DNA from: Clostridia bacterium | Lineage (GTDB): Bacteria > Bacillota > Clostridia > Oscillospirales > Acutalibacteraceae | Assembly (NCBI GenBank): GCA_017548045.1 | Contig: JAFYNR010000036.1 | Span: 1 to 42,553 of the forward strand | Direction of reading: 5' to 3' | DNA: 42,553 nucleotides | Shown here: in pieces, positions 21,186 through 23,136 of the stretch | Numbering within the stretch: position 1 is the first letter of the stretch | How the letters are laid out: every line of letters starts with the position of its first letter | Notes under the pieces: generated by a model | Database searches by the model: none | The model's input: only the letters and a program-made list of their open reading frames with translations | Told to the model about the DNA's origin: nothing | Made by a program: the position numbers and the translations under genes

Positions 21186-21271
21186 AATTTTCGATGAGAT
21201 TTGGCTTTCGCAGTGAGCGTAGCGTATTAAAGATACGTAAGCGAGCGAGAAAGTCAAAGATCGCGAAAATT
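21186..21271. repeat. Long imperfect inverted repeat between pgk and tpiA
   Basis: Arms of about 40 bases start AATTTTCG and end CGAAAATT; the centre is GCGTAT-TAAAG-ATACG. Inner blocks (TTTGGCTTTCG/GAAAGTCAAAG, GAGCG/GCGAGC) pair with several mismatches. It overlaps the last two bases of pgk. No T-tract follows. It looks like an inserted palindromic element and could fold in the pgk-tpiA mRNA. Confidence 0.6.
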
Positions 21272-22481
21272 ATTTGTCATTAACTGCTTCGATACCGGGA
21301 AGAGCCTTACCCTCAAGGAATTCAAGTGATGCGCCGCCGCCTGTTGAGATGTGAGTCATCTTGTCACCGAAGCCGAGAGTGTTAACAGCCGCTGCTGAGT
21401 CACCGCCACCGATGATTGTAACTGCATCTGTTTCAGCAAGTGCCTTTGCAACCGAAATTGTACCTGCTGCAAGAGTGGGGTTCTCGAATACGCCCATAGG
21501 TCCGTTCCATACAACGGTCTTTGCGCTCTTTACTGCTTCTGCGTAGAGCTCTGCAGTCTTGGGGCCGATATCAAGGCCTTCTCTGTCTGCAGGGATTGCA
21601 TCTGCCGCATAAACTTCTGTTGCGATTTCAGCATCGATGGGGTTGGGGAAGCCTTCTGCTGTTACAACGTCAACGGGAAGAAGAATCTTAACGCCCTTTG
21701 CGTCTGCCTTTGCAAGCATATCCTTGCAGTAGTCAATCTTGGTTTCGTCAAGAAGTGACTTGCCTACGCCGTAGCCCTTAGCAGCAAGGAATGTGTAAGC
21801 CATACCGCCGCCGATGATGAGTGTGTCAGCCTTGTTGAGAAGGTTTTCAATAACGTTGAGCTTATCTGCAACCTTTGCACCGCCGAGGATTGTAACGAAG
21901 GGTCTTTCGGGGTCTTCAACTGCGTTGCCGAGATATTTGAGCTCTTTGCCCATAAGGTAACCTACTGCTGCTTCTTCAACATAAGCTGTAACGCCTACTG
22001 TTGAGCAGTGTGCTCTGTGAGCAGCACCGAATGCATCGTTAACATACATTTCGCAGATGCTTGCAAGGTCCTTTGAGAAAGCTTCGCCGTTCTTTGTTTC
22101 TTCTGCACGGAAACGGGTGTTTTCAAGAAGAACTACATCGCCGTCGTTCATAGCGGCAACAGCAGCCTTTGCGTTTTCGCCTACAACTGTATCGTCAGCA
22201 GCAAAAACAACTTCCTTGCCAAGCTTCTCGCTGAGTCTCTTTGCTACGGGAGCAAGTGAGAACTTTGCTTCGGGGCCGTTCTTGGGCTTGCCGAGGTGTG
22301 AGCAAAGGATAACCTTTGCACCGTCATTTATAAGTTTCTGAATGGTGGGAAGAGCAGCGTTGATTCTGTTTTCGTCTGTGATAACGCCTTCCTTGAGAGG
22401 AACGTTAAAGTCGCAGCGAACAAGCACCTTCTTGCCCTTTGCATTGATGTCGTCAACTGTTTTTTTGTTAAGTAAGCTCAT
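21270..22481 (-). CDS. pgk: Phosphoglycerate kinase
   Basis: Pgk makes ATP from 1,3-bisphosphoglycerate. I choose the ATG at 22481 (403 aa), with GAAAGGATTG upstream; the extended frame adds 15 residues before the ribosome site. Signature pieces are [11 protein letters not shown] near the N-terminus, [17 protein letters not shown], the GGAKVADKL hinge region, and the C-terminal nucleotide-binding [10 protein letters not shown] and GGGDSAAAV. It is the first gene of pgk-tpiA-gpmI. The upstream gap holds a CGTAATATTACG palindrome and a small hairpin that could bind a regulator. No gapA or cggR precedes it. Confidence 0.98.
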
Positions 22482-22572
22482 TTTTTTCAATCCTTTCAAA
22501 AATTTTGTAGGAACATACTTTACCAATTATTTATTTTATAATATTATGTCAAATATTTCAAGCATTATTTAT

Positions 22573-22603
22573 CGGCAAAACGCCGAATATACGTAATATT
22601 ACG
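22573..22603 (-). promoter_or_regulatory. Palindromes upstream of pgk
   Basis: A perfect 12-base palindrome CGTAATATTACG (22592-22603) lies 6 bases from a CGGC-AAAAC-GCCG hairpin (22573-22585), about 90-125 bases upstream of the pgk start. Between them and the gene are TTGACA and TATAAA-like blocks on the minus strand, so these could be upstream operator sites for the glycolytic operon. The sites also lie next to the tRNA promoter on the other strand. Confidence 0.4.
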
Positions 22604-22617
22604 GAGCATTTTTCGGC

Positions 22618-22646
22618 TTGACTTTACAATGGGTTTTTGATAAAAT
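22618..22646 (+). promoter_or_regulatory. Promoter of the tRNA-Arg cluster
   Basis: -35 TTGACT (22618-22623), 17-base spacer, -10 TAAAAT (22641-22646), 27 bases before the first, interrupted tRNA copy. No separate promoter is visible for the intact tRNA at 22838, so it is probably co-transcribed with the broken copy. Confidence 0.7.
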
Positions 22647-22672
22647 GGGTAGGCTGAAGAAATTGAATATTT

Positions 22673-22807
22673 GCCTCCTTAGTTAAATGGATAGAAGAAC
22701 CTGACGCTGACGCGTCAGAACCTTGTTACTCGCTTTGCTCGTAATAAGAACTTGTCGCTCCGCTCCAAAACCTTGTTACTCGCTTTGCTCGTAATAACAG
22801 GCCCCTC
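22673..22807 (+). pseudogene. Interrupted and truncated tRNA-Arg copy (copy A)
   Basis: Bases 22673-22693 match the first 21 bases of the intact tRNA-Arg (acceptor 5' strand and D arm). Matching resumes at ATAACAG (22794-22800) and continues through GCCCCTC to 22807, then is lost inside the anticodon loop. Between the two parts are about 100 bases of palindromic modules. The T arm and acceptor 3' strand are missing, so it cannot fold as a tRNA, although it sits directly after the promoter. Confidence 0.8.
22694..22797 (+). repeat. Array of palindromic modules inside tRNA copy A
   Basis: Modules starting GAACCT, GAACTT or AAACCT are each followed by a hairpin: TGACGC-TGAC-GCGTCA, TTACTCGC-TTT-GCTCGTAA, and GTCGCTCCGCTCC. 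A 29-base unit (starting AACCTTGTTACTCGC) is repeated exactly at 22719-22747 and 22769-22797, 50 bases apart. A variant of the unit occurs in copy C at 22983. Confidence 0.75.
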
Positions 22808-22837
22808 TCAGCAAACGACACATTAAATATAACATCT

Positions 22838-22912
22838 GCCTCCTTAGTTAAATGGATATAACAGGCCCCTCCTAAGGGTCAGTTGTGGGTTCGATTCCCG
22901 CAGGGGGTGCCA
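22838..22912 (+). tRNA. tRNA-Arg (anticodon CCT)
   Basis: A complete 75-base cloverleaf. Acceptor GCCTCCT pairs with AGGGGGT (two G-U), discriminator G and encoded CCA. D stem GTTA/TAAC with the GG loop. Anticodon stem GGCCC/GGGTC with loop CTCCTAA, giving anticodon CCT (reads AGG). T stem GTGGG/CCCGC with loop TTCGATT. A terminator follows two bases after CCA. It is flanked by broken copies A and C. Confidence 0.96.
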
Positions 22913-22914
22913 TT

Positions 22915-22943
22915 CTCCGATGATTTTTTCATCGGAGTTTTTT
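22915..22943 (+). terminator. Terminator after intact tRNA-Arg
   Basis: CTCCGATGA and TCATCGGAG are perfect 9-base arms around TTTTT, followed by TTTTTT. It separates the intact tRNA from broken copy C. Confidence 0.92.
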
Positions 22944-23066
22944 GTTAATGGATATAAGAACCTCTCGAACTTCGTTCTCGAGAACCTTGTTACTCGCATA
23001 CGCTCGTAATATACATTGGCCCCTCCTAAGGGTCAGTTGTGGGTTCGATTCCCGCAGGGGGTGCCA
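22944..23066 (+). pseudogene. 5'-truncated, interrupted tRNA-Arg copy (copy C)
   Basis: GTTAATGGATATA (22944-22956) matches the D arm minus one A; the acceptor 5' strand is absent. After about 60 bases of palindromic modules, 49 bases (23018-23066) are identical to the anticodon arm, T arm, acceptor 3' strand and CCA of the intact gene (22864-22912). It lies beyond a terminator and lacks half of its acceptor stem, so it is presumably non-functional. Confidence 0.8.
22957..23011 (+). repeat. Palindromic modules inside tRNA copy C
   Basis: Two modules: AGAACC followed by the hairpin TCTCGA-ACTTCGT-TCTCGAGA, then GAACC followed by TTGTTACTCGC-ATAC-GCTCGTAAT. The second is a loop variant of the 29-base unit in copy A. 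The modules enter the D arm at almost the same place as in copy A. Confidence 0.72.
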
Positions 23067-23067
23067 A

Positions 23068-23112
23068 AAAGAGCTGTAAACACCTTGATAGGCAAGGAGT
23101 TCGCAGCTCTTT
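23068..23112. terminator. Bidirectional terminator between copy C and the winged-helix protein gene
   Basis: AAAGAGCTG and CAGCTCTTT are perfect 9-base arms enclosing an inner hairpin CCTTG-ATAGG-CAAGG. Plus reading continues CTTGTTT; minus reading continues TTGG after five T, serving the gene that ends at 23137. Confidence 0.8.
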
Positions 23113-23136
23113 CTTGTTTATCTGATTTTCTGCGCT

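Follow-up and report, generated by a model that had tools for sequence, protein, structure and literature searches.

A REP-like palindromic element recurs in partial copies of tRNA genes, including tRNA-Arg(CCT), in a Clostridia bacterium and its relatives

The window analysed here is a stretch of 42,553 nucleotides, contig C33 of a Clostridia bacterium assembly of 2.38 Mb that is 85.7% complete. It contains a single tRNA gene, tRNA-Arg(CCT), next to a divergent phosphoglycerate kinase gene (pgk), and neighbour comparison found this pairing again in several relatives. The intact tRNA gene lies between two partial copies of itself, A and C, each interrupted by a palindromic element that we call E. 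The features of the locus are listed below.

21270-22526, minus strand: pgk, the divergent neighbour of the tRNA locus (Pfam PF00162)
22618-22646, plus strand: sigma-70-like promoter TTGACT-17-TAAAAT, the best plus-strand match of a consensus scan (10/12)
22673-22695, plus strand: copy A, tRNA-Arg(CCT) nucleotides 1-23 (sequence comparison)
22696-22796, plus strand: E in copy A, two tandem units at 22696-22746 and 22747-22796 (unit structure taken from relatives)
22797-22807, plus strand: copy A resumed, tRNA nucleotides 24-34, ACAGGCCCCTC, after which tRNA homology stops
22838-22912, plus strand: intact tRNA-Arg(CCT) (ARAGORN; Rfam RF00005, 56 bits)
22915-22943, plus strand: intrinsic terminator-like stem and T run, 3′ of the intact tRNA
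22944-22956, plus strand: copy C, 13-nt D-arm piece GTTAATGGATATA
22957-23011, plus strand: E in copy C, one unit, a 55-nt insert
23012-23066, plus strand: copy C, 3′ part of the tRNA, from TACATTGG to CCA
23068-23112, plus strand: inverted repeat with 20-nt arms, 85% complementary, 3′ of copy C

An initial annotation of this DNA had described two tRNA-Arg(CCT) copies interrupted at the same D-arm site, and this was confirmed: in both A and C the insert follows tRNA nucleotide 23, a bond in the D loop. The insert of copy A is 101 nt long and its 5′ piece differs from the intact tRNA by one change (GGATAGA for GGATATA), and the final 49/49 nt of copy C are identical to the intact gene. The promoter-like site stands 5′ of fragment A, suggesting that fragment A, E and the intact tRNA would be carried in one transcript; two weaker plus-strand promoter matches were found at 22519-22547 in the consensus scan. 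No ORF of at least 100 aa overlapped 22527-23136, and no integrase or cargo was seen between the full and partial tRNAs.

Comparison of E copies revealed a unit of AGAACC, a variable hairpin, AGAACCTTGTTACTCGC, 2-6 nt and GCTCGTAATA, with AGAACC standing before both hairpins; the second unit of copy A deviates, with AGAACT and AAAACC. Across 26 distinct 50-nt units, 176/182 cells of the variable hairpin were Watson-Crick over seven pairs, compared to 26/182 with the pairing shifted by one. All but one of the seven pairs varied, with up to four pair types, in a set whose unit filter fixed the first letter as C or T and the last as G or A and so favours the outermost pair. The constant hairpin kept a TC/TC double mismatch in 26/26 units. 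Furthermore, stems of at least 4 bp were present in 70% of 115 distinct variable segments versus 8% of shuffles. Hairpin sequence and array length varied freely between relatives, with inserts of ~50-320 nt across loci, and tandem units met at the junction TAATA|AGAACC. The array of a Patescibacterium (L076, 4045-4344) had seven units with a 45-nt period, its core being conserved across phyla.

An exact-pattern scan of species genomes found at least 116 stretches carrying E. Among the matches listed, 110/116 were Clostridia by NCBI rank, and Patescibacteria (L076, L123 and L137) and a Blackburnbacterium (L135) were also among them. Gut or rumen samples were named for many of the 80 listed of at least 116 stretches. 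In the window's genus a 17-nt core (at most two mismatches) was present in 36 of 45 genomes, with 101 core matches versus 11 for a reversed-pattern control, some of the two-mismatch matches not being E. This recurrence in relatives rules out chance. The initial annotation had looked to further palindrome-tRNA associations in the same genome; in the window's own assembly, 85.7% complete as it is, no other E copy was found, so that the tRNA association rests on the other genomes. Copy number was low, at 0-9 core matches per genus genome. Carriage by phages was considered and set aside, E being present in only one contig of the viral collection. We found no prior description of E among the listings of the open-access literature searched.

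We then read the genus arrays by hand and found that 43 of 68 distinct E arrays lay in extra tRNA pieces. These occupied the D loop of tRNA-Arg(CCT) in 14 cases, tRNA-Pro(CGG) after U8A9 in 15, and the 3′ end of tRNA-Gln(CTG), with E on the opposite strand, in 14, two of which (L032 and L046) stop at contig ends of one genome and are possibly one array counted twice. The 25 arrays at other sites include a degenerate one (L285), and nine rows had been dropped from the genus set as not E (L203, L210, L258, L261, L272, L281, L287, L291 and minus-strand L047). The exact-pattern set had been assembled without regard to tRNAs, and 28/119 of its arrays among the matches listed satisfied a strict tRNA rule, with 19 at Arg, 5 at Pro and 4 at Gln. 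A lenient rule was passed by 40/119 among the matches listed, compared to 275/3021 control ATA sites, the controls being scored by the lenient rule only and the strict rule applied to E arrays. Of 140 arrays, 15 had no left end, and 119 were kept after flank-length cuts and de-duplication. Since tRNA genes make up well under 1% of a genome, the bias of E towards them is strong. Arg(CCT), Pro(CGG) and Gln(CTG) are all C34 isoacceptors, whose codons the U34 isoacceptor can usually also read, a status that would make the three tRNAs tolerant targets. The plain gene, with neither fragment nor element, was found in many relatives (12 rows for Arg, 14 for Pro and 18 for Gln, counted as rows rather than genomes, in a tally made without the CCA end and therefore too low for Gln fragments). 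Those rows with a fragment and no E that were inspected included two anticodon-loop inserts (L375 and L376), a degenerate E (L308) and three unclassified cases (L025, L305 and L313).

The trinucleotide RTA stood directly 5′ of E at 59/67 collapsed non-tRNA sites. The preference for the D arm as such that had been suggested for this locus was not borne out: E used RTA sites in many places, and one fixed site per tRNA gene. RTA is common and therefore does not explain the use of only one site in each of the three tRNAs. A longer target motif taken from the three tRNA sites, GGNNRTA, was rejected (GG at 7/67 versus a 5% background, p 0.06). At one well-preserved site, L072, the one that was compared letter by letter with an uninterrupted copy at that locus, E lies in the D loop of nearly complete tRNA-Arg copies. 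If E is taken to be AGAACC...GTAATA, the letters on its two sides are GGATATA|ATAAACCCCTCCTAAGGGT, which is also the sequence of the intact copy, indicating that insertion there was precise and without target duplication; further 3′ the interrupted copies diverge from the intact one. A preference for hairpin-prone targets was considered and set aside: non-tRNA E sites lay in more foldable DNA (n=83, mean −17.5 kcal/mol) than 767 control intergenic ATA sites (mean −13.1 kcal/mol; p 2e-8), but the junction was not unpaired more often at these 83 sites. Stop-to-stop frames of at least 100 codons held 36/83 non-tRNA E sites versus 83% of ATA positions.

Two other kinds of site recurred. One is the stop codon of a GGGtGRT-family gene, where E supplies the end of TAA or directly follows it (L044 at 459-464, L047, L236, L293, L067, L074, L106, L110 and L171); PF14057 was tested for L044 only, and the other cases were judged by like letters. 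The second lies within another palindromic repeat (GGGCGAC/ATT...GCCCCTACG; L041, L052, L267, L277 and L279), an arrangement that resembles IS elements inserting in REPs.

In a pgk tree of 30 genomes, all eight genomes with E in tRNA-Arg fell within one clade of 14, suggesting that inheritance explains much of the genus pattern; three more such genomes (G009, G011 and G025) are outside this tree. Genomes with E in tRNA-Pro or tRNA-Gln were spread over other branches. The arrangement in the tRNA-Arg D loop was found in about 11 unlike gene neighbourhoods. At the loci that are not linked to pgk (L060, L072, L090, L105, L108, L122, L157, L160, L173 and L023), the neighbours within 3.5 kb (E-value 1e-20) were unlike those of the pgk locus and unlike each other, the exceptions being one protein common to L086 and L122 and a distant one common to L088 and L160. 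The bond that E uses in tRNA-Arg is taken in four relatives (G001, G005, G006 and G041) by an unlike element, E2, whose core matches in the 45 genomes were at tRNA-Arg(CCT) in 3/3 cases. We conclude that the arrangement is real and recurrent, with members of a REP-like palindromic element family lying in partial copies of tRNAs.

We also compared the geometry of the tRNA pieces. At 14 Arg loci where E accompanies a 5′ fragment, 2-12 tRNA letters remained to the right of E and the next tRNA 5′ end followed 25-46 nt after it. The letters after E mostly matched the genome's own tRNA (ACAGGC, ATAAACC, ACGGGCC, ATAGCC and ACAAACC). The leader was clearly duplicated in 4/16 loci (L108, L160, L122 and L060) and not clearly so in 12/16, with an own mean of 10.7 and a cross mean of 7.7 in the leader duplication test (p 0.02). 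An intact tRNA of the same anticodon was mostly kept near the E-bearing pieces. Among the exceptions are L128 and L298, which lie at contig ends or close to them and whose retrieved parts showed no intact tRNA; in the genome of L128, G046, contig C38 had a full-length match (91%). The only match of the tRNA query in G052 was a 5′ piece, and in G022, G026, G048 and G049 the nearby intact tRNA-Arg(CCT) was of another type.

A separate class of locus was seen at pgk. In L012, L036, L369, L375 and L376 the pgk-linked tRNA-Arg(CCT) is broken in the anticodon loop (CCTCCTAA), and the break is followed by a hairpin stretch and then by a different intact tRNA-Arg(CCT) (genomes G012, G013, G026, G032 and G033). 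At these loci one tRNA has been exchanged serially for another, with nesting in G026.

Based on these observations, we consider that E is probably a non-autonomous REP-like or IS200-like palindromic mobile element, which persists where part of a tRNA has been duplicated locally, mostly with an intact gene remaining. An element of about 45-105 nt, with two hairpins and AGAACC before each as its ends, would be placed 3′ of an RTA trinucleotide without target duplication. Its own end, TAATA, offers an RTA site again, which would give rise to the tandem arrays. In tRNA-Arg(CCT) the target would be GGATATA in the D loop, and partial local duplication of the tRNA would yield the broken pieces A and C that carry E beside an intact tRNA that keeps the function. 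Mobility would be that of a single-strand (HUH-type) system, and selection for an intact tRNA would decide which insertions survive. The initial annotation had pictured much the same combination, a small palindromic element with a preferred site and a local tRNA duplication, and copies A and C and the relatives bear it out. The tRNA bias, the unlike neighbourhoods and the use of one Arg bond by both E and E2 favour this reading as well. A local origin is supported by the letters after E, which mostly follow the genome's own tRNA, and by the duplicated leaders. Points against this reading are that no enzyme is linked to E, that its copy number is low, unlike that of classical REPs, that RTA is too common to account for the single site in each tRNA, that much of the genus pattern is possibly vertical, that most leaders are not clearly duplicated, and that some broken pieces have no intact tRNA next to them, or one of another type.

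E shares several properties with known systems. Like REP/REPIN sequences and their RAYT (TnpA-REP), it has short hairpins, a fixed 5′ motif, internal mismatches and clustered placement, and its covarying palindrome is kept as a structure, as in REPs. Passages of PMC3733652 on GTAG/CGTC REPs describe REPs that supply stop codons and insert in palindromes, and E does likewise. E differs from REPs in its low copy number and strong tRNA association, in having AGAACC before its hairpins rather than a GTAG/CGTC tetranucleotide, and in that no RAYT flanked by E was found among 29 Y1 loci. In IS200/IS605 ends and the related MITEs, as laid out in passages of PMC6006769 on HUH transposases and guide motifs, a guide motif precedes each hairpin, and insertion takes place 3′ of a short target that is repeated at the right end, without target duplication; AGAACC is a putative counterpart of the guide, and E follows RTA in the same manner, also without duplication at L072. 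E differs from IS200/IS605 in that no tnpA was linked to it and no ends shared with a TnpA-coding copy were found in the 116 stretches, in a variable hairpin that is unlike between most copies, and in the looser target RTA. This comparison draws on details of IS608. A classical MITE, defined by terminal inverted repeats and target duplication, does not describe E, since no target-site duplication was found at L072. Rickettsia palindromic elements and 23S rRNA intervening sequences are palindromic inserts in genes for structured products, whereas with E an intact gene usually stands beside the interrupted tRNA pieces.

The search for a mobiliser revealed Y1 transposases at 29 loci in 21/45 genus genomes. 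E (core, at most three mismatches) was present in the flanks (up to 1.5 kb) of 0/29 of these loci, and five E-bearing genomes that are 96-100% complete (G007, G033, G036, G042 and G044) had no Y1 match at 1e-5, so that a resident Y1/RAYT mobiliser was not supported. When four TnpA/RAYT queries were compared with the 116 stretches, only L123 gave a match, a weak one lying about 3 kb away from E. It is possible that E is inactive in the species to which the window belongs.

A possible, if unlikely, alternative is that E enters together with a tRNA half after GGATATA, breaking the resident gene and restoring it at once. The inserted units would be either E, spacer, leader and tRNA 1-23, or tRNA 24-75, terminator, D-arm piece and E, and both kinds are bounded by RTA sites. 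Several mosaics agree with this. L173 alternates halves of two tRNA-Arg types, its order being the 5′ half of one type, E, the 5′ half of another type, E, and the first type again as an intact gene. In G001, G005 and G006 the fragment is of another type than the intact gene (GCCCCCA versus GCCTCCT), and in G014 copy C likewise departs from the intact gene. The few tRNA letters and the short distance between E and the next tRNA 5′ end also agree, as does the finding that, relative to the window, G003 has the one-unit and the two-unit array swapped between copies A and C, suggesting that arrays are exchanged or renewed. However, the duplicated leaders are a prediction of plain tandem duplication, and the letters after E are mostly those of the genome's own tRNA. 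In the genomes with E2, furthermore, it is the new 5′ half and not the old one that pairs with the 3′ strand (A66). Insertion of a composite unit explains the mosaics and not the duplicated leaders; plain tandem duplication fits some loci well and others poorly.

The same idea can be carried further, in a form that we regard as doubtful. E would be the core of the smallest tRNA-restoring mobile elements, each a gene-less unit of ~100-200 nt with two hairpins and half a tRNA that enters a tRNA gene at one bond, mends it with its own half and is moved in trans by a single-strand DNA enzyme. E2 and a further element, E3, would follow the same strategy. E3 is palindromic, has the core AACAGTCCGGTGGACTGTT, is bounded by T-arm-like inverted repeats and lies between tRNA-Gln(CTG) and a partial 3′ copy (L334, L345, L352 and L358; genomes G011, G021, G026 and G039).

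It is quite improbable that the fragments are attL/attR scars left by ordinary tRNA-integrating elements after island loss, with E as a passenger. Passages of PMC9897764 describe tRNA fragments as att scars, and the window resembles such islands in that a partial and a complete copy of one tRNA adjoin. The locus is also an integration hotspot, with 3′ halves about 1.0 kb (G009) and 1.3 kb (G026) past the intact gene and with the anticodon-loop inserts and different tRNA-Arg(CCT) of the five genomes named above. However, the inserts are only of the short lengths given, the locus has neither an ORF of at least 100 aa nor any integrase or cargo seen at that size, and E breaks both fragments at one bond with tRNA sequence on either side. 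E loci further differ from islands in having 5′ fragments, such as copy A, as well as 3′ ones, and the same site recurs in about 11 neighbourhoods.

A conserved functional leader, in which fragment and hairpins regulate or process the downstream pre-tRNA and are kept for that reason, is very improbable. Fragment A and E do sit between the promoter-like site and the tRNA, E lies at a fairly constant distance from the next tRNA, and the leader in the window gives a better fold than its shuffled versions (z −2.7). At tRNA-Pro loci, the stretch that follows E includes a reverse complement of the tRNA 5′ end, which yields an outer stem like that of an acceptor. Against such a function, the plain gene is common among relatives, and the hairpins and the length of the arrays vary freely; in the fold of the window the tRNA letters that remain after E pair with the acceptor strand, but several relatives retain too few of these letters for such pairing. 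The other RNA roles that the initial annotation had allowed for gained no positive support from the folding. Bacterial tRNA introns of group I are anticodon-loop inserts with a group I core, and a D-loop intron was rejected as the main reading, in agreement with the view that this is not a recognised intron, since the insert is in the D loop, intact copies are present in the window and in L072 and Rfam (gathering threshold) found only tRNA and no intron; the idea that A and C supply the halves of a split tRNA, to be joined in trans, had no support and is needless with an intact gene present.

Large integrating elements that carry their own recombinases classically settle in tRNA genes. The palindromic element E extends this to gene-less hairpins of about 50-100 nt that use exact sites in three tRNA genes, and it looks like a small mobile element whose liking for tRNA genes is unusual. 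If a mobiliser were found, it would join REP/IS200 biology with tRNA-targeted integration. The E-interrupted pieces also call for caution in annotation, as ARAGORN takes some of the 3′ pieces for tRNA genes: in L009 (1501-1574) and L014 (1501-1574) it called the E-interrupted 3′ piece (copy C) a tRNA-Arg whose 5′ strand lies inside E, which is probably a false annotation.
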